This document shows positions 13,203 through 28,669 of a stretch of 64,000 bases of DNA, one piece after another. The DNA comes from Saprospiraceae bacterium (GTDB lineage: Bacteria; Bacteroidota; Bacteroidia; Chitinophagales; Saprospiraceae): assembly GCA_020629715.1 (NCBI GenBank), contig JAHDCU010000002.1, positions 522,848-586,847 of the forward strand, read 5' to 3'. Both the position numbers and the translations under genes were made by a program. Within the stretch, counting starts at the first letter, position 1; every line of letters begins with the position of its first letter. Below the pieces are notes generated by a model. That model was not told where the DNA came from and ran no database searches. It was given only the letters and a program-made list of their open reading frames with translations.

Positions 13203-14075
13203 ATGAAAACCGATATTACGTTGATTAATGATCAGGACGATAATCTAGATTTTGAAGCAATTATAGTCATTGAAAAAAAAATGTTAAAAAATAATCTAAT
13301 ACGCCGATTCAATGATTTTTATACATCCAGAACGAAAGTCACCATTCTGGATGAATCTGAAATCCCTTTAGCATCAACTACCGCCCTATTAGAAGCTGAA
13401 AAAATAAAATCTGTAATTTATATAGGTAGCACTAGAGAACATCTGTTTTCAAATCCTATTTTACTCTCCGAAAAGTCTAGTTATTTTGGCACGACTAATA
13501 AGGTAATTGGTTATCAACGTCATTTATCAAATTCTCCTCTTGAGCAAAGTTTTTCAATAGGGCTAGGTGAATTGAAGAAAGATATCATGAAGAGTGAACT
13601 TGTATTAAGAAATTCAAATTTCGTTGAAGTGCAACTTTCTTTATTGAAGGCCAATGAAATGAATCGAAATTGTCAAGATTCTATACATGGTCTTGATTCT
13701 GAAGAATTCTGTCAATTGCTAAAAATATGTGGATTCTCGTGTAAAAATAATGTTATGTGGTTTTCTGATATAAGTGAAGAACCACAGTATAATGAAATAG
13801 ATATATTATGTTCTTCCATTTGGTATTATCTAGAAGGATTAGCCCTCAGACAAAACGAAGATCCAAGTAATAAGAATGATATGACTACCCTTATGGTGCA
13901 GGCTCCAGACTTGAGTCAAGATCATGAATTTATTAAAAGTAAAGAAACTGGTAGATTGTGGTATAAATACAAAAGCTCAGAAATAAATGAAGAACATCAT
14001 TATTTGGCTTGCTCACAAGAAGATTACGAAACCACATGCCAAGAAGGTATACCTGATAGACTATTATCAATCTAA
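13203..14075 (+). CDS. Degenerate arginase/formimidoylglutamase-like protein
   Basis: The 290-residue protein is related to the Bacteroidota-specific ureohydrolase (arginase/formimidoylglutamase) family, most clearly from residue 95 on: VIGYQRHLSN, GLGELKKDI, VLRNSNFVEVQLSLLKANEM, HGLDSEEFCQLLKICGF, SSIWYYLEGLALR, ETGRLWYKY and the closing CSQEDYETTCQEGIPDR all align by eye with that family. It is about 100 residues shorter at the N-terminus than the family's usual 390. Positions that carry metal-binding aspartates in true ureohydrolases (GGDHS, DAHxD, SxDxD) appear here as GSTRE and VEVQLS, so catalysis is unlikely. It overlaps the stop of convergent murF by 4 bp and lies in the T9SS cluster. 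No signal peptide; predicted cytoplasmic. Confidence 0.65.
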   Translation: MKTDITLINDQDDNLDFEAIIVIEKKMLKNNLIRRFNDFYTSRTKVTILDESEIPLASTTALLEAEKIKSVIYIGSTREHLFSNPILLSEKSSYFGTTNKVIGYQRHLSNSPLEQSFSIGLGELKKDIMKSELVLRNSNFVEVQLSLLKANEMNRNCQDSIHGLDSEEFCQLLKICGFSCKNNVMWFSDISEEPQYNEIDILCSSIWYYLEGLALRQNEDPSNKNDMTTLMVQAPDLSQDHEFIKSKETGRLWYKYKSSEINEEHHYLACSQEDYETTCQEGIPDRLLSI

Positions 14076-15334
14076 TCGGTAACCAATCTTTCTAATTGTA
14101 GAGCCCTAGATCCTTTTAAGAGTATCGTACAATTTCTAAGTTGTTTCCAAATATTGCTCGATTTCAATTCATCAATATTTAGAAATACAAAATCATTGTC
14201 GCCATAGAGATTATGATATATTTCTCCTACTAATATTACTAAATGGAATGTTTTTGATTGGGTATGAGAATAAACAGATTTATGCTCAGCTTCACTTTCG
14301 GTACCTAGTTCGAGCATATCACCAAGTACTACAACCTTATTTTGAAAAGAAGATTTGTCAAAGGCATCTATACTAAATCTTGCACTCGTAGGGTTACTAT
14401 TATATGCATCAAGAATGAAAGTTCTGTCATCCTTGCCAACAATCTCAGACCGATTGTTATCCGGTATATATGATGATACTCCATTTAGAATAGATTGTTC
14501 AGAAACACCGAAGTATCGACCTATAGCAATTGCAATAGCTATATTTTGAATATGAATTTCACCAATAAGATTAGTCTCTACAGATTGTCCCAAGGCTTTT
14601 AACTTGAGGAATCTTTTATCGTCTTCAAGTATAATATCAGAAGGTACTACTTCAATAATAGAGTCATATTCCCCTAACATTTCTAAGAGGGTCGGATCTT
14701 CTTTATTTACTAATATTGTTTTATGAGCGTTCTTTAGATAAGCATACATCTCTCCTTTTCCCTTTTTGACACCTTCTATACCACCAAACCCTTCTAAATG
14801 TGCTTTACCTATATTTGTGATCAAGCCATAGTCTGGTTCTGCTATTTTACAAAGTGCAGCAATTTCGCCTTGATGATTAGCACCCATTTCGATGATAACA
14901 TAATCATCATCCTGTTTCGCATTGAGAATAGTGAGCGGAACACCAATATGATTATTGAGATTACCCTTTGTAACTGTTATCCTAAAAGTACTTTGTAATA
15001 CTTTGGCAATAAGCTCCTTGGTTGTCGTCTTGCCGTTGCTACCTGTGAGTGCTATTACCTTGCCTTTGAATGTTGATCTATGATAATTGGCTAGTGCTTG
15101 GAGAAATTTTAGAACATGATCTACAACTACATATTGTTCACTTAGCTTGAAATCACGCTCATCTATTACCGCTAAAATAGCACCCGCATCAATTGCTTTT
15201 TTAGCATACTTATTACCATTAAATCGCTCTCCTTTTAATGCAAAAAATATATCTCCTTTTGTGATACTACGTGTATCAGTACTTATTGTGGCACCCGACA
15301 ATAGGAAATCATGAACTAATTTGATCTTATTCAT
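14072..15334 (-). CDS. murF: UDP-MurNAc-tripeptide:D-Ala-D-Ala ligase
   Basis: This 420-residue enzyme makes UDP-MurNAc-pentapeptide in the last cytoplasmic step of peptidoglycan precursor synthesis. The N-terminal substrate domain shows ISTDTRSITKGDIFFALKG; the ATP-binding P-loop is GSNGKTTTKELIAKVL; the central domain has VTKGNLNNHIGVPLT and EMGANHQGEIA; and the C-terminal Mur ligase domain has LDAYNSNPTSARFSIDAF and LGDMLELG. The frame continues open upstream into gldJ, but the conserved N-terminus begins at MNKIKLVHDFLL, so ATG 15334 is chosen. The gene follows gldJ, an order I recall from Flavobacterium, although a hairpin terminator sits in the gap. Confidence 0.95.
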   Translation of the reverse strand: MNKIKLVHDFLLSGATISTDTRSITKGDIFFALKGERFNGNKYAKKAIDAGAILAVIDERDFKLSEQYVVVDHVLKFLQALANYHRSTFKGKVIALTGSNGKTTTKELIAKVLQSTFRITVTKGNLNNHIGVPLTILNAKQDDDYVIIEMGANHQGEIAALCKIAEPDYGLITNIGKAHLEGFGGIEGVKKGKGEMYAYLKNAHKTILVNKEDPTLLEMLGEYDSIIEVVPSDIILEDDKRFLKLKALGQSVETNLIGEIHIQNIAIAIAIGRYFGVSEQSILNGVSSYIPDNNRSEIVGKDDRTFILDAYNSNPTSARFSIDAFDKSSFQNKVVVLGDMLELGTESEAEHKSVYSHTQSKTFHLVILVGEIYHNLYGDNDFVFLNIDELKSSNIWKQLRNCTILLKGSRALQLERLVTD

Positions 15335-15340
15335 AAGCAT

Positions 15341-15370
15341 AAAAAAAGCCCTTAATAAATTAAGGGCTTT
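15341..15370 (-). terminator. Hairpin terminator between gldJ and murF
   Basis: On the minus strand AAAGCCCTTA pairs with TAAGGGCTTT (10 bp, 6-nt loop), followed by a run of T. It starts 16 bp after the gldJ stop, and its T run ends a few bases before the murF ATG, so it can end gldJ transcripts or partly attenuate murF. Confidence 0.8.
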
Positions 15371-15386
15371 AATTTTAATATTTTTC

Positions 15387-16895
15387 TTACTTGTACTTTC
15401 TTTTGATTTTACGACCGCTTTCAGGAAATTCATTTCCACCAGTATCCTCATTTCCTGCAGGACCTCCTACACGTATCATAGCACATCTAAATCCTAAGGT
15501 ACGATCAGATTTTGCTTGATCTTTAAATCGACGAGTCCCAGGAGATAACCAATATAATCTATCAGCCCAAGATCCTCCTTTAATAACTCTAACACTATCA
15601 TTTATTAAAGTATATTCTCCGTAGCCATAAGATACCAATTCGCTGTTTTCACCATCTTTGTAATCTACTACATTACCTTTCTTATAGTTTTCTCTATCTG
15701 CTACTTCATCATCTTCTACCGTACGGTATTGTAATCTACCTAGACTATCTTTTTCGATAGGCCTTCCCTCTTCATCAAGAATAATCTCTTTAAATTGATT
15801 ACCTCTAAATGGATTCAAATCATGGTTTTCAGCATCACTCAGTGTAATACTTGTAAGCGGCCTATATACATCTTCAGTCCATTCACTAACGTTTCCAGCC
15901 ATATTATACAGTCCGAAATCATTAGGTAAAAACTGCCTTACTGGCCCTGGTGTAGATGCGTGATCATTAAGATTACCACTCATACCCATATAGTCACCAC
16001 GACTTCTCTTGAAGTTAGCCAAGATTTTACCTTGATTACCATTTCTCTTTTGATATCTAGCTGTACGACCATTCCAAGGATATATACGACGATCTGTGAT
16101 ATTTTCGTCTTTTCTAGTATTTTGATTTCCTTGAAGTGCAAGGGCAGCATACTCCCATTCAGCTTCAGTCGGTAATCTGTAATCTGGTAACAAAATGCCA
16201 TCTTCAAATTCTACAGGACGTTCTCCACCTGTTTGTAGATCAGGAAGATTCTTTCTTACATCCCCTTGATATTGTCCTGCGAGATAAGCTTTTGTATTAA
16301 AATTATCAGAGTCAACTTGATTTGTATTAAGATTCAGTACACCTCTTTCGACTAATAACATTTCATTTACCCGATTACTTCTCCAAGCGCAATATTCACG
16401 AGATTGGCTCCAATTGACACCTACCACAGGATAATCATCATAAGATGGGTGTCGGAAGTATGTTTCTACTAAAGGCTCATTGAATGAAAGCTCTTCCCTC
16501 CAAACTAGTGTATCAGGTTGAGCATCAATCCATACTTGAGGATACGCTTTATATGTTTGCTTTGTCCAGTGGAGATATTCTTTCCAATTATGATTAGTCA
16601 CCTCTGTTTCATCCATATAGAATGAAGAAACAGTTACTCTTCTAGGAATATTATTCCACTCGAAAGAAACATCCTCTTCAGTAACTCCCATAGTGAAAGT
16701 ACCACCCTCTATCAGAACAAGATTAGGACCATTGATCTGTCCTTCGTAATCTCTTTTTTCAAAACCACCCCACTCTGGGTCATTAAATTTCCATCCAGTT
16801 GCTGAAGATCGCTCTCCACCACCTCCACCACCACAAGATGCTAGTCCGAAACATAACACAACAGCACCTAAGAGTAGATTAAATGAATTTCTCAT
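15387..16895 (-). CDS. gldJ: GldJ gliding motility/T9SS lipoprotein
   Basis: This 502-residue protein begins with a lipoprotein signal (MRNSFNLLLGAVVLCFGLASC; lipobox LASC) followed by a run of Gly. Its body is an FGE-sulfatase/SUMF1-like domain: NLVLIEGGTFTMG, FYMDETEVTNHNWKEYL, YPVVGVNWSQSREYCAWRS, YRLPTEAEWEYAA, YNMAGNVSEWTEDVY, VIKGGSWADRLYWLSPG and LGFRCA. GldJ and its paralogue GldK share this fold; the adjacent murF on one side and porU on the other, plus the ATGWKFN segment after the lipobox, favour GldJ. GldJ stabilises the gliding/secretion machine at the periplasmic face of the outer membrane. A -7 match (TATATTTG) lies at 16956-16963. Confidence 0.9.
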   Translation of the reverse strand: MRNSFNLLLGAVVLCFGLASCGGGGGGERSSATGWKFNDPEWGGFEKRDYEGQINGPNLVLIEGGTFTMGVTEEDVSFEWNNIPRRVTVSSFYMDETEVTNHNWKEYLHWTKQTYKAYPQVWIDAQPDTLVWREELSFNEPLVETYFRHPSYDDYPVVGVNWSQSREYCAWRSNRVNEMLLVERGVLNLNTNQVDSDNFNTKAYLAGQYQGDVRKNLPDLQTGGERPVEFEDGILLPDYRLPTEAEWEYAALALQGNQNTRKDENITDRRIYPWNGRTARYQKRNGNQGKILANFKRSRGDYMGMSGNLNDHASTPGPVRQFLPNDFGLYNMAGNVSEWTEDVYRPLTSITLSDAENHDLNPFRGNQFKEIILDEEGRPIEKDSLGRLQYRTVEDDEVADRENYKKGNVVDYKDGENSELVSYGYGEYTLINDSVRVIKGGSWADRLYWLSPGTRRFKDQAKSDRTLGFRCAMIRVGGPAGNEDTGGNEFPESGRKIKRKYK

Positions 16896-16982: not shown

Positions 16983-17990
16983 CTATCGAAATAGTGATAA
17001 GCAATCATTTAGTTTCGATTTTTTTGAACCCACTCCATATAGATTTATTAAAATTCCTATTTCATGAGCACCTCCAGATCCGATACTTAAATCAGAAATG
17101 GTATAATCAAAACTATATCCAATTTTAAAAGGACCTTTTTTTATACCCGTTGACATAATAATTGCATCACTATTATTCCAGGCATTCCTATACCACAATC
17201 CTACAAAGAGTGATCTAACCGCAGTATAAGCTCCCACATTAACCTGATAAAAGTCTCCTTGTCTTTCAAAGAGAACGTTAGGTGTAATAAACGTGCCTTC
17301 ATCTTTTTTATTTCCCCGGCGTAAATTTATTTGGTAACCTCCGTGTAATGAAAACCTTACTGGAAGGTCAGCCCCAGCAAATATGCCGTCAAGATAAGAC
17401 TGATTCGGTGTATTAAGATGATTGAGTGAAAAGCCAACGTAGAATAACTTGTTGTATAATAGAAATCCACTAGAAATATCAAAGTAGCTATTAGAGATAT
17501 TTCCAATAATACCCTCAGTATTAGGAATGATAGATCCACCTTGGGTTATAATACCAGATCCTCTATCTATCTGCTCCCCAAAAATCAGTCTACTCCCATC
17601 TAATCTTTGTTGAACATAGGCGGCGCCTATTCCCATTTTTAATTGAAAATCATTATTCAATCTTAGTGAATAAGAATACATTAGCGAGGCATTAGTACTT
17701 ACCAGTGCTCCATCACCTGAGTCGTCATTGAGCAAAGAAAAACCTATACCGCTATTATAATTATCAAAAAAACGATCAAATCCAACTTGATATGTCGTGT
17801 ATGTATTACCAAAGCTAGGCCATTGATTTCTATAATTTAAACTTACCACTGGATGACTAGACACTCCAGAAAAAGCTGGGTTTAGAGTCAGGGGTGAATT
17901 ATAATATTGACTAAAAACGGGATCTTGGGCATACAATTGACCACCAAGTGCTGCAACTATAAATAATATTTTAAGAACTATGTATCTAAT
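16983..17990 (-). CDS. PorP/SprF family type IX secretion membrane protein, probable ATT start
   Basis: The protein is an outer-membrane beta-barrel of the PorP/SprF family, which works with the T9SS and its SprB-type adhesins. QDPVFSQYYNSPLTLNPAFSG, NYRNQWPSFGNTYTTYQVG and the closing strands (PFKIGYSFDYTISDLS, SGGAHEIGILINL) are diagnostic. The first ATG/GTG/TTG in frame is TTG at 17936, but starting there removes the signal peptide. The frame runs open back to a stop at 17997-17999 and encodes RYIVLKILFIVAALGGQLYA immediately before QDPVF, a clear signal peptide. The best initiator in it is ATT at 17990 (335 residues); ATA at 17981 is possible. An out-of-frame ATG lies at 17995-17997. It is divergent from porU and followed by gldJ 87 bp away. 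Confidence 0.82.
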   Translation of the reverse strand: MRYIVLKILFIVAALGGQLYAQDPVFSQYYNSPLTLNPAFSGVSSHPVVSLNYRNQWPSFGNTYTTYQVGFDRFFDNYNSGIGFSLLNDDSGDGALVSTNASLMYSYSLRLNNDFQLKMGIGAAYVQQRLDGSRLIFGEQIDRGSGIITQGGSIIPNTEGIIGNISNSYFDISSGFLLYNKLFYVGFSLNHLNTPNQSYLDGIFAGADLPVRFSLHGGYQINLRRGNKKDEGTFITPNVLFERQGDFYQVNVGAYTAVRSLFVGLWYRNAWNNSDAIIMSTGIKKGPFKIGYSFDYTISDLSIGSGGAHEIGILINLYGVGSKKSKLNDCLSLFR

Positions 17991-18095
17991 AGGACATTAT
18001 GTTTTTAAGATTGCGGAAATATGAGAACTTAGCAATACTAACAATGCTTGAACGTTTCAACTCTCGAAAAAATTGATCAAACTCTGTTATTTATT

Positions 18096-21000
18096 ATGCA
18101 ATATTATACCAAACTATTTATTTTAATATCGGTTCTCGTCTTTTTTAAAATAAATCTTTCTGCACAACAACAGTATTCGATTAAAGGTGAACTATATTGG
18201 AGCAAATCCAATGTACTCCTAAATCCCCTTACTGAAGAATATGTAGATATCTATAGCATAAAAAATGGATCATCTTCCATCAAATATCCTGAGATCCCTA
18301 TTTATAAAACAAAAATTAAAATTAAAGGAGATGCATCCGTTAGTACTAGTATTGATATCCTAGAAGAGGAAGAAATCATTTTGAAAAGGGAGGATAGCAA
18401 AACAAAAATTTCTAATAAAGTTGATATTAATATAACCATTGCCAAGGAACGTCAAGATTACTATGCCCACCTGAGCTTCATACCCATATATCAGAACAAC
18501 GGAAAATACTACCGACTAAATCGCTTTAAAATAAATCTTACCGCAAAAGAGAAATCCTCATCCGCAAAAAAAGATCCTAATAACAAACTAAACTCGATTT
18601 TAGCCAGCGGTGATATTTATCAATTTAGGATCAGTACTGACGGGATACATTATATAGACCGAGCGCTTTTAGAGAGTGCTCTTGGTTCAAAAATAGACGA
18701 AATTAATCCCAAAAATATTTCCATTTTTGGAAATCCTGGAGCTAAGCTTCCGCAAGCTATTGTTGATGATAGAATTGATGATTTGGCAGAAATACCCATA
18801 TTCATTATTGGAGAAGAGGATAATAGCTTTGATGAAAATGACAGGATTGTCTTTTATGCTCAAGGTGCATCAACATGGCAGATCGATAATAATGATCTCA
18901 TCTACAATCAAAATATTTATGACTTACATAATTATATTTATATCAAGCTTGATCAAGCCGATGCCAAACGTATAGAAGATTTTGACTATTCTCAAAATAC
19001 AAGTAATTATTCAACAGACTCCTACGATCACTATACAAGATATGAAGAGGATAGAACAAACCTTCTAGGTCAATTTAGTGCTACTGAAGGGTCGGGACAA
19101 TCGTGGTACGGGCCAAGCTTCAATATAGAACGTGAACAAAATTTCCGAGATAAGCTGCTCATTAAAAATATCGTATCGGGAGAGGAGGCTGATATATCAT
19201 GTCTTTTTGCAGGTCGCAGTGACTTAGCAAGTTCATTTAGCCTGAGTATTGAAAACAACTCCTGGTCTCGAATCATACCTAGAGTAAATACTGCTGGATT
19301 TGTGTCCAGGTATGCCTTTGACAGAACTATTGAAGAAAGTTTTATTTTAAATAACGACGAACCTGATGTCATCATTAATTACCCCAATAATGCAGAAGGG
19401 GCTGAAGGTTGGTTAGATTATATTCAACTGGTATACAGAAGACAGTTAATCTATAATAACGACGCATTAGTATTTCAAGACCTACTCGCAGCAAATGCCA
19501 CTGTTGCTCAATTTAATATTTCGCAAGTATCGGATGCTACAGTTTGGGACGTATCGGATCTAAATAATCCCAGATCACTAAAGACAGAAAATACTGCTAC
19601 GGGAATAAAAGTACAAGATGTTCAAAATGGTAATCTAAAGAGATATTTGGTTTTTAAGGAAGAAGATATCGTCCTAAAACCGCAATTTGTATCAAAAGTA
19701 GATAATCAAAATTTACATGCCATTACCGATGTGGATATGATCGTGGTCTATCATAAAGATTTCGCGACCGCCGTAGAACGATTAGCTGAGTTTAGAAGAA
19801 ATCACGATGGGCTCAATGTTATCACAGTAGATATAGAACATATCTATCATGAATTTTCATCTGGACGTGTTGATCCATCAGCACTCCGAGATTTCGCAAA
19901 GATGATATATAACCGAACCGATAATTTCACTTATTTATTACTATTTGGAGATGGGTCTTATGACTATCGAGCTATAGTACCCGGCTTGACAGACCAAAAT
20001 TTTGTACCTGTTTATGAAACCGTAGAGAGTCTTGATCCTATTGAAGCATTTCCTACAGACGATTATTTCAGTTTATTAAGTGATCAGGAGGGGGGCAACT
20101 TAAGAGGTGCTCTTGACATAGCAGTAGGTCGTATACCCGTAACGACAGCTAGTGGCGCGGAAGCCGTTGTTGATAAAATAATTCATTATCAATCTGATCT
20201 CAATACATTAGGAGAATGGCGGTTGAAAACACAGTTCATTGCAGATGATGAAGACGGTAATCTTCATCTTCGTCAGACTGAAAATATTGCTAGAGATACT
20301 GAAGAAGATCATAAACTTTATAATCAGTCCAAAATTTACTTAGATGCTTATCCTCAAAACTCCACTCCTGGTGGTGAACGATATCCTGAAGCTAATGCAG
20401 CCATCAATAGCAATATCAATAATGGATATTTAGTTACCAACTATCTCGGTCACGGTGGACCTACTGGGTGGGCTCAAGAACGTGTTTATGGAAATAATGA
20501 TATCCTTAATCATAATAACTATGACCAACTAACCCTTTTCGTCACGGCCACCTGCTCTTTTACAGGGTATGATGATCCAGAAATAATAAGCGCAGGCGAA
20601 AACTGCCTACTCAATCCTAATGGAGCCGGTATAGGATTATTTAGTACGACAAGAGCCGTATGGTCTAATGAAAATGAGAGACTTGCTCAGTCTGTATTCG
20701 ATACTATATTTGTGAGAGAAGAGGGTAAATACCAAACGCTAGGAGAAATTTTACGAAAGGCTAAAAACAATGAAGGTGCAGATACGATAAGTAGAAATGC
20801 TAGAAAGTTTGCTATGATTGGAGATCCTGCCCTGACGCTCAACTATCCAAAATATACGGTTCAGTTAGATGAGATCAATGGGCAAGGTATAAGTCAAGTT
20901 CTTGATACCTTAGCTGCCCTTCAAAAAGTAACCATGAGTGGCACCATTACTGACTATACGGGTACAGTTATTTCTGATTTCAATGGTATTTTGAGTCCGA

Positions 21001-21941
21001 CGATTTATGATAAAAAAAGCTCTATAAATACATTAAAAAATGATGAGCGAAGTCAACTGACCTCATTCGAAGTTTTTAAAAATATTATTTTCAAAGGAAA
21101 TGTTTCGATCATCAATGGACAATGGGAGTTCAGCTTTATCGTGCCAAAGGATATTGATTACAGTTATGGCACAGGACGTGCAAGCTTCTACGCTGTAGAT
21201 GGAAATGGAGTAGATGCCGGCGGATACTCTGAAGACTTTATTATAGGAGGTACATTTGGACAAGCCATTGTAGATAATCAGGGACCTGAAATAGAACTAT
21301 TTATCGACAACGAGTCATTTGTAAGTGGAGACCAAACTAGCCCCGACCCATTACTTATTATAAAGCTATCGGATGAAAATGGAATAAATGTGTCTGGCAC
21401 TAGTATTGGTCACGATCTGACTGCGGTACTCAATGATCCTGATCAAAGCTCAAATATCTTAAATGAATTTTACGAATCTAATCTGGATGACTATACAGCC
21501 GGAAAAGTGAATTTCAGATACAATGATCTTCCTCTAGGTAGCTATTCCCTTACCGTAAAAGCATTTGATGTTGCAAACAATAGTTCTCAAGAAACTATTG
21601 ATTTTGTAGTAATTAATCAGGGAGATCAACCTCTGAGTAATGTGCTTAATTATCCAAATCCATTTACGACACAAACAAAATTTACATTTGAACACGATTT
21701 TGCAGAATCTAGCGTTGATGTACTTGTGAATGTATTTACGATAAGTGGAAAGCTGGTGAGAAGTATAAATACCAATTCGATATCTAGGGGTAACTATGTA
21801 GATGATATCATTTGGGATGGAAAGGACGACTTTGGAAATCAATTAGCAAAGGGAGTATATCTTTACAAGGTGAAGGCAAAAGGAATAAGCTCTGAAAGCA
21901 CCCAAGAAAGTGATTTTGAGAAGCTCGTGATATTAAAATAG
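18096..21941 (+). CDS. porU: PorU, T9SS C-terminal signal peptidase (C25 family)
   Basis: This 1281-residue protein is PorU, the gingipain-family (C25) sortase that cleaves C-terminal domains of T9SS cargo at the cell surface and attaches A-LPS. A signal peptide starts at ATG 18096 (MQYYTKLFILISVLVFFKIN, then LSAQ); a TTG at 18048 would put a hydrophilic stretch in front of it and is rejected. The catalytic pair is visible: His786 in NYLGHGGPTGW and Cys820 in TATCSFTGYDDPE. The region before it carries LLLFGDGSYDYR and AVGRIPV, typical of C25 peptidases. The C-terminus is itself a sorting-type beta domain: LNYPNPFTTQTKFTF, VFTISGKLVRSI, GKDDFGNQLAKGVYLYKVK. porV follows 55 bp downstream. Confidence 0.95.
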   Translation: MQYYTKLFILISVLVFFKINLSAQQQYSIKGELYWSKSNVLLNPLTEEYVDIYSIKNGSSSIKYPEIPIYKTKIKIKGDASVSTSIDILEEEEIILKREDSKTKISNKVDINITIAKERQDYYAHLSFIPIYQNNGKYYRLNRFKINLTAKEKSSSAKKDPNNKLNSILASGDIYQFRISTDGIHYIDRALLESALGSKIDEINPKNISIFGNPGAKLPQAIVDDRIDDLAEIPIFIIGEEDNSFDENDRIVFYAQGASTWQIDNNDLIYNQNIYDLHNYIYIKLDQADAKRIEDFDYSQNTSNYSTDSYDHYTRYEEDRTNLLGQFSATEGSGQSWYGPSFNIEREQNFRDKLLIKNIVSGEEADISCLFAGRSDLASSFSLSIENNSWSRIIPRVNTAGFVSRYAFDRTIEESFILNNDEPDVIINYPNNAEGAEGWLDYIQLVYRRQLIYNNDALVFQDLLAANATVAQFNISQVSDATVWDVSDLNNPRSLKTENTATGIKVQDVQNGNLKRYLVFKEEDIVLKPQFVSKVDNQNLHAITDVDMIVVYHKDFATAVERLAEFRRNHDGLNVITVDIEHIYHEFSSGRVDPSALRDFAKMIYNRTDNFTYLLLFGDGSYDYRAIVPGLTDQNFVPVYETVESLDPIEAFPTDDYFSLLSDQEGGNLRGALDIAVGRIPVTTASGAEAVVDKIIHYQSDLNTLGEWRLKTQFIADDEDGNLHLRQTENIARDTEEDHKLYNQSKIYLDAYPQNSTPGGERYPEANAAINSNINNGYLVTNYLGHGGPTGWAQERVYGNNDILNHNNYDQLTLFVTATCSFTGYDDPEIISAGENCLLNPNGAGIGLFSTTRAVWSNENERLAQSVFDTIFVREEGKYQTLGEILRKAKNNEGADTISRNARKFAMIGDPALTLNYPKYTVQLDEINGQGISQVLDTLAALQKVTMSGTITDYTGTVISDFNGILSPTIYDKKSSINTLKNDERSQLTSFEVFKNIIFKGNVSIINGQWEFSFIVPKDIDYSYGTGRASFYAVDGNGVDAGGYSEDFIIGGTFGQAIVDNQGPEIELFIDNESFVSGDQTSPDPLLIIKLSDENGINVSGTSIGHDLTAVLNDPDQSSNILNEFYESNLDDYTAGKVNFRYNDLPLGSYSLTVKAFDVANNSSQETIDFVVINQGDQPLSNVLNYPNPFTTQTKFTFEHDFAESSVDVLVNVFTISGKLVRSINTNSISRGNYVDDIIWDGKDDFGNQLAKGVYLYKVKAKGISSESTQESDFEKLVILK

Positions 21942-27796: not shown

Positions 27797-28669
27797 TTAT
27801 CCTTTTAATGCCTTTAGCATGGTCTGGCCAATATCAGCTGGTGAATTCACAACATGAATTCCACATGCAGCCATTATTTCCATTTTCGCTTCTGCAGTAT
27901 CATCTTTTCCGCCTATGATTGCACCAGCATGTCCCATAGTTCTACCCTTGGGAGCAGTTTGACCTGCAATAAATCCTACTACAGGTTTTGTTGCATTTTC
28001 CTTAATCCAGCGAGCTGCATCAGCTTCCATGTTACCACCGATTTCGCCAATCATAATAATTCCGTCTGTATCAGGATCTTCCATAAGGAGTTGCACAGCA
28101 TCCTTGGTGGTAGTACCCACTATTGGATCACCACCAATACCTATACAAGTGCTCTGACCTAATCCTGCCTTGGTAACCTGATCAACAGCCTCATATGTAA
28201 GAGTACCTGATCTAGAAACAATGCCTATCCTACCTGGATTATGAATAAAACCAGGCATGATACCTACCTTAGCTTCACCTGGAGTCATGACACCAGGACA
28301 ATTAGGCCCAATAAGTCTACAGTCAAATTTTTCAATGTAAGCTTTGACCTTAACCATATCCTGAACCGGAATACCTTCCGTAATACAGATGATTACTTTG
28401 ATACCTGCTTCTGCCGCTTCCATGACCGCATCACCTGCAAATCTTGGAGGTACAAAAATGATGGAAGTGTCTGCACCAACTTTTTCTACAGCTTCTACTA
28501 CGGAATTGAATACGGGCTTATCTAGATGTGTAGATCCCCCTTTCCCGGGAGTCACTCCACCGACCACATTAGTACCATACTCGATCATCTGACCAGCATG
28601 AAAACTACCTTCTTTTCCGGTAAAACCCTGTACTATGATTTTTGAATTCTTATCAACAAGAACACTCAT
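27797..28669 (-). CDS. sucD: Succinyl-CoA synthetase alpha subunit
   Basis: This 290-residue protein is the CoA-binding alpha subunit of succinyl-CoA synthetase, which makes ATP or GTP from succinyl-CoA in the TCA cycle. The CoA-binding Rossmann region is visible as [17 protein letters not shown] and [12 protein letters not shown]; the ligase motif as [19 protein letters not shown] and [13 protein letters not shown]; and the phosphorylated histidine lies in [13 protein letters not shown]. The beta subunit gene (sucC) is not adjacent, which is common in Bacteroidota. It lies 11 bp downstream of the divIC-like gene. Confidence 0.96.

Follow-up and report, generated by a model that had tools for sequence, protein, structure and literature searches.

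A Bacteroidota family of arginase-fold proteins apparently lacking a complete binuclear metal site and often encoded near type IX secretion and gliding genes

A short open reading frame (ORF) beside gliding genes in a Saprospiraceae bacterium raises the question of whether it encodes the dead remnant of a metabolic enzyme or a protein with a role of its own in the system that surrounds it. The ORF lies in a stretch of 64,000 nucleotides of contig JAHDCU010000002.1 (positions 522,848 to 586,847; hereafter the window). A preliminary description had placed it within a cluster for the type IX secretion system (T9SS) and gliding. The surroundings bear this out, the neighbouring products being assigned by Pfam to MurF, an FGE-sulfatase-type GldJ, PorP/SprF and a PorU-like peptidase C25 protein (Table 1). 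The gldJ product matched TIGR03524 (E = 5.8e-105) below the cut-off of that model, which was passed in only 3 of the 60 genomes searched, the window's own among them. The 3' ends of the ORF and of the murF ORF overlap by 4 bases (14072–14075). The murF ORF, as called, in addition shares 65 bases with the gldJ ORF (15387–15451), so that the true start of murF probably lies further in. A housekeeping stretch is found on the minus strand at 27797–48687, with selected ORFs for succinyl-CoA ligase alpha, enolase, carbamoyl-phosphate synthase small chain, SecY, ribosomal protein L2 and EF-G.

Table 1. Features of the pseudo-ureohydrolase gene and its neighbours in the window
Feature	Coordinates	Strand	Basis or remark
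Pseudo-ureohydrolase gene	13203..14075	+	ATG start, 290 aa, stop codon included in coordinates
Residues 1–117, eroded N-terminal half of ureohydrolase fold	13203..13553	+	Alignment
Residues 118–217, conserved C-terminal half of fold, DxD motif replaced by QLS	13554..13853	+	Alignment, model
Residues 218–290, family-wide C-terminal extension	13854..14072	+	Consensus and invariant columns
murF (Mur ligase family), convergent neighbour	14072..15451	-	Pfam Mur_ligase domains
gldJ-type gliding lipoprotein, FGE-sulfatase fold	15387..16895	-	PF03781, E 8.8e-47
PorP/SprF family outer-membrane protein	16983..17936	-	PF11751, E 1.6e-62
PorU-like peptidase C25 protein	18048..21941	+	PF01364, E 9.9e-103

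The window gene does not have the appearance of a pseudogene in decay, since its ortholog in the same genus (L003) is of nearly the same length (288 aa) and 59% identical, and the two genes differ at 94, 55 and 137 of the respective codon positions over 288 codons. Identity between the two proteins is 72% at residues 118–290 and 41% at residues 1–117, suggesting that constraint acts on the C-terminal half and the extension and not on the old active site.

By itself the window protein matched no family in Pfam (at E up to 1) or in NCBIfam, its two matches among PDB sequences were both at chance level, and a scan of the genome contigs with it as query returned 55 pattern matches and no relative. 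Homologues were nevertheless found, one each, in 59 of 60 genomes searched, with E-values outside its own genome from 7.9e-109 to 2.3e-6, and a class sample contained the family in 141 of 149 genomes; both searches counted the window's own genome, and genomes scored negative may carry divergent or unsequenced copies. The homologous frames had 360–400 codons in 33 of the 59 genomes, were longer in 10 and shorter in 16. Thus the N-terminus of the 290-residue window protein is indeed short, as first remarked, and the shortening is not peculiar to it. Of ten homologues sampled, eight exceeded the cut-off of the Arginase profile (PF00491), with a best E of 3.3e-28; the two that did not, L003 and L005, belong to the window's genus. 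A search with an alignment of full-length members as query yielded 572 loci, the best 80 of which were used (titled records, a choice biased to conserved members), and PF00491 was matched by 58 of 58 members in a set from titled records. It is by alignment with these full-length homologues, and not by a profile match of its own, that the window protein joins the PF00491 superfamily; the arginase/formimidoylglutamase-like membership first proposed by eye is thus upheld through its relatives, as well as by the fold model described below. The NCBIfam hutG model (TIGR01227) requires 229.15 bits; five members reached only 34.6–108.6, and the window protein was not matched. Although such scores invite the label formimidoylglutamase, the name HutG is unsafe for the family.

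The family shares a C-terminal extension of about 80 residues with several invariant or nearly invariant positions, which in the window protein includes the motif F-x-K-S-x-x-[ST]-[GD]-R-x-W ... C-S-x-x-D-Y. It lies outside the PF00491 and PDB alignments, and searches with it found no family above chance in Pfam and only chance-level matches among PDB sequences. In a phylum sample of 118 genomes, a match reaching the extension was present in 29, all in the window's class; in the 17 matched genomes outside the class the match ended at profile positions 240–293 of 366, as that of ordinary arginases would. The window gene thus belongs, in shortened form, to a Bacteroidota family that spans the class, is usually present once per genome and is derived from a formimidoylglutamase/arginase-like enzyme. 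In one genome consisting of a single contig (G115:C1:921214-922320) the family gene was recovered in three matches, one with in-frame stops, representing either a real pseudogene or sequencing errors. No account of the pseudo-ureohydrolase family, its extension, its half-site or its T9SS neighbourhood was found in the literature searched, which covered few subscription papers; pseudo-arginases are already known in other settings.

Structure prediction pointed to the same ancestry. For the full-length member L154, taken from a Tenacibaculum MAG record, the model had a mean pLDDT of 91.5, and Foldseek ranked formimidoylglutamases first among its matches (3m1r, E 2.6e-16). VIA-align superposed residues 20–306 of the model on 2a0m over 277 residues with an rmsd of 2.0 and a Z-score of 36.3, the same Z-score as for 4mxr, and gave 34.5 for 3m1r, which was also the best PDB profile match of the family (E 1.6e-18). 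Metformin hydrolase chains were among the best fold matches of the family as well. The model of the window protein was of lower confidence (mean pLDDT 74, under 50 at residues 33–42 and 85–115), and its best VIA-align matches were again formiminoglutamases (Z 16.1, rmsd 3.0, 189 residues, model residues 1–217). The family is accordingly predicted to have the arginase fold.

The metal site was examined in 110 aligned sequences, the window protein included, comprising 30 of the 59 homologues and the best 80 of the 572 loci. The ligands were defined by L001, the sole PF00491 match of the window's genome, which has GGEH, DAHAD and DLD with all six ligands, and were labelled site A and site B in the usual manner for arginases. 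More than four of the six ligands (GGxH, DxHxD, DxD) were kept in none of the 110 sequences. Among the 103 scorable ones, none kept both ligands that belong to site B only and 8 kept either one, whereas the three aspartates of site A were kept in 82, and in 73 of the 77 from titled records. The site-A histidine is replaced by glutamine in 61 of these 82 sequences and in 62 of the 80 titled ones; all four site-A ligands were present in 17 of 103. In the window's order this half of the site is in decay, the three site-A aspartates being found in 9 of 26 sequences. The window protein itself has Arg, gap, gap, gap, Gln and Ser at the six positions and so keeps none: its GGxH motif reads GSTRE and its DxD motif falls within VEVQLS, both where the preliminary description had seen degenerate motifs, and a gap takes the place of DxHxD.

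As judged from this alignment, a complete site B is absent from every scorable member, and the whole metal site has been lost in the window's genus. A remodelled half-site is conserved in most full-length members of this sample, which is biased to conserved ones. This ordered pattern, with site B lost and the site-A aspartates kept, argues that the family has not merely eroded, and the hydrolysis of guanidino compounds has presumably been lost by the family. The preliminary description of the window protein as a pseudoenzyme therefore stands as regards its lost ligands, and both the predicted arginase-like fold and a metal site that is not intact are in keeping with it, but the state is not peculiar to this copy.

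The gene neighbourhood differs among relatives. A frequent order elsewhere is miaB (on the opposite strand), topA, the family gene, often a PorP/SprF gene, and then gldK, gldL, gldM and gldN; the Tenacibaculum record L154 has topA-family-gldK-gldL-gldM-gldN, so that the full-length member which the preliminary description placed beside gldK does exist. In the class and Bacteroidales samples together, 108 of 201 genomes (65/118 and 43/83, respectively) had gldM 3.3–7.9 kb downstream of the family gene and on its strand; in these linked genomes gldM was never upstream or on the opposite strand. The other 93 genomes (53 of the class and 40 of Bacteroidales) were unlinked, some because of contig ends. 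For these counts, G115 and G154, in which the family gene is broken or partial, were dropped from the 141 genomes of the class, GldM positions covered 121 of 142 genomes among the matches listed, and in Bacteroidales GldM places were entered for family-bearing genomes only. Tandem GldM matches about 2.5–3.5 kb apart were seen in several genomes (G136:C10:12135 and 15618, G170:C32, G096:C52 and G201:C159), representing duplicated gldM-type genes.

The arrangement in the window's taxonomic order and family is another one. Among 56 genomes from these, the window's own counted, gldJ was within 8 kb and always convergent in 29 and unlinked in 27, some by contig ends; because of the convergent orientation, the family gene and gldJ are not co-transcribed. 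Of 20 fetched regions from the order, 11 had murF and gldJ within 7 kb, 10 of these also having PorP, which is the arrangement of the window, and none had topA. Among the titled loci (best 80 of 572), topA was within 7 kb in 44 and gldK in 20, 26 of the 44 topA-bearing loci had no gldK in reach, and 26 of the 80 had none of the probed genes, partly owing to short flanks. Clustering of the neighbours of 100 loci, with names given by our reading of example sequences, returned topA in 44, PorP/SprF in 35, GldK/J in 34, MiaB in 29, GldL in 17, GldM and GldN in 14 each, MurF in 14 and PorU in 13, and unnamed non-T9SS clusters recurred in 13–16 loci each. At two further loci, a response-regulator-like gene directly follows on the same strand (L141:11062-12234), and in Pedobacter (L148:11261-14077) two similar proteins with signal-like N-termini take the place of T9SS genes after the family gene.

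Linkage with T9SS/gliding core genes is thus conserved in relatives without being universal, and suggests a link to type IX secretion or gliding. GldJ, GldK and GldN have been modelled as one gliding track and SprF has been shown to be disulfide-bonded to GldK (PMC12635249); on this account the family gene adjoins track and carrier genes in both settings. The earlier idea of two T9SS clusters, each with a member of the family, one live and one dead, did not hold. Full-length members also lack site B, and we infer a single family at differing chromosomal places in preference to two clusters that each recruited a member.

Co-occurrence with T9SS genes was scored in 119 Bacteroidales genomes, of which 84 had the family, 107 GldM and 95 GldJ. 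Raw Fisher tests gave strong associations (family-GldM, p 3.8e-6; family-GldJ, p 8e-15; family-GldJ within GldM-positive genomes, p 2e-10). These values are not used as evidence here, since 19 of 32 family-negative genomes form one clade on an rpoB tree and independent pairs showed no agreement. The tree (FastTree; 113 of the 119 genomes, five without an rpoB match and one short fragment, G310, being left out; 28 of 110 inner branches starred) implied 8 changes for the family, 6 for GldJ and 8 for GldM. In starred independent pairs, the family followed GldJ in 0 of 4; with GldJ as the follower, the average was 0.3 of 3. With fewer than six pairs, significance was out of reach. Co-loss of the family with GldJ or GldM thus found no support on the tree of 113 Bacteroidales genomes, at low power, and the raw association goes back largely to a single clade. 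Ten genomes on the tree carry GldM and GldJ without the family, which indicates that in these lineages the T9SS does not depend on it, provided that no divergent copies escaped detection; the notion that the family tracks GldJ rather than the T9SS was dropped for the same reason. A group of Bacteroidales, mostly one rpoB clade (e.g. G165, G312, G264 and G272), has GldM/PorM matches above 470 bits and neither GldJ nor the family, which presumably corresponds to a T9SS of the Porphyromonas type.

We propose, at what we consider an even chance, that the family protein has a binding or regulatory, non-catalytic function in the cytoplasm, its likeliest partner system being the T9SS/gliding machinery. 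A cytoplasmic location is probable because no export signal is evident on inspection of the N-termini. A partner would be bound by the C-terminal half and the extension; where the protein is full-length, what remains of the pocket (Gln/His and three Asp) may accommodate a metal or ligand and thereby gate the binding. The cytoplasmic part of GldL would be the most accessible candidate, its gene being the second one downstream at loci that lack an intervening PorP gene; a cytoplasmic domain of GldL has been described (PMC8986121). A more specific version, in which the family is an unrecognised cytoplasmic component of gliding or the T9SS, namely a site-A metabolite or metal sensor docking by its extension, e.g. 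on the GldL motor, with the docking part alone left in the window's genus, appears doubtful. The recurrence of neighbours outside the T9SS, namely MiaB (29 of 100 loci) and the unnamed clusters, speaks against a T9SS/gliding partner in general.

The main rival is a role unrelated to the T9SS, such as metabolite sensing or a partnership with the topA region, with the gliding genes nearby through inherited gene order; we regard it as a substantial possibility, though one well short of even. It draws on the fact that topA is the commoner neighbour (within 7 kb in 44 of the 80 titled loci, the best of 572, 26 of them without gldK), on the co-occurrence with GldJ and GldM that the tree did not support, and on the lack of linkage to gldM in 53 of 118 class genomes. 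It does not account easily for the window's order, where topA is missing from all 20 regions and murF-gldJ is present in 11, with PorP in 10 of these, and gldJ lies within 8 kb in 29 of 56 genomes: this arrangement constitutes a second T9SS/gliding setting, which is unlikely to have arisen by chance. That full-length members are still enzymes, using a mononuclear site A (Gln/His, Asp, Asp, Asp), with the window's lineage alone being dead, would fit the 73 of 77 titled sequences (best 80 of 572) with all three aspartates and the 17 of 103 with all four ligands. We consider it improbable in view of the replacement of His by Gln in 62 of the 80 titled sequences and of the two site-B-only ligands, which no scorable sequence (0/103) retains together; moreover, the gene has persisted in the window's genus after losing the whole site, which points to a function without catalysis.

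Least probable of all, in our estimation, is a partnership in which the protein completes an active ureohydrolase or makes it more stable, as MetCb does with MetCa in metformin hydrolase. A pseudoenzyme-enzyme pair is known in the superfamily (PMC11271267), and the window's genome does have one canonical PF00491 gene, but this gene and the family gene are on different contigs (C6 and C12). Three genomes of 95–100% completeness (G172, G182 and G104) with the family have, at E <= 1e-5, a single PF00491 match each (E-values from 4.6e-12 to 2.9e-24), presumably the family gene itself to judge by its strength; an active partner thus seems absent from them, and such single weak matches disfavour the heteromer. 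The non-catalytic binding protein with a T9SS/gliding partner remains our preferred reading, and the family may be an overlooked helper of the gliding and secretion machinery. If the link is true, the T9SS or gliding apparatus would have an unexamined part, whose gene lies shortly before gldKLMN in roughly half the genomes scored. Even without the link, a conserved enzyme family has lost half of its metal site and has continued, throughout a bacterial class, to evolve into something different.

Among known systems, HutG (B. subtilis 3m1r, T. cruzi 4mxr and V. cholerae 1xfk) shares its fold with the family over model residues of about 20–306. The family differs from it in lacking the complete binuclear metal site, in scoring far under the hutG cut-off and in the added C-terminal extension of some 80 residues. 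The arginase-like protein of Trypanosoma brucei is reportedly an arginase homologue that evolved without a binuclear manganese cluster; it resembles the family in this respect but is eukaryotic and is not known to be linked to a secretion system. MetCb, the pseudo-subunit of metformin hydrolase (8x3g, 8snf and 8ryi), is likewise an arginase-fold protein that has lost metal binding (PMC11271267). MetCb works with its active partner MetCa, whereas the family appears to occur also in genomes that show no canonical member, and it is distinguished by an extension and a neighbourhood of its own. GldJ, GldK, GldN and PorP/SprF, the chromosomal neighbours of the family in both settings, are non-homologous to it and are envelope proteins, whereas the family protein has no evident export signal.
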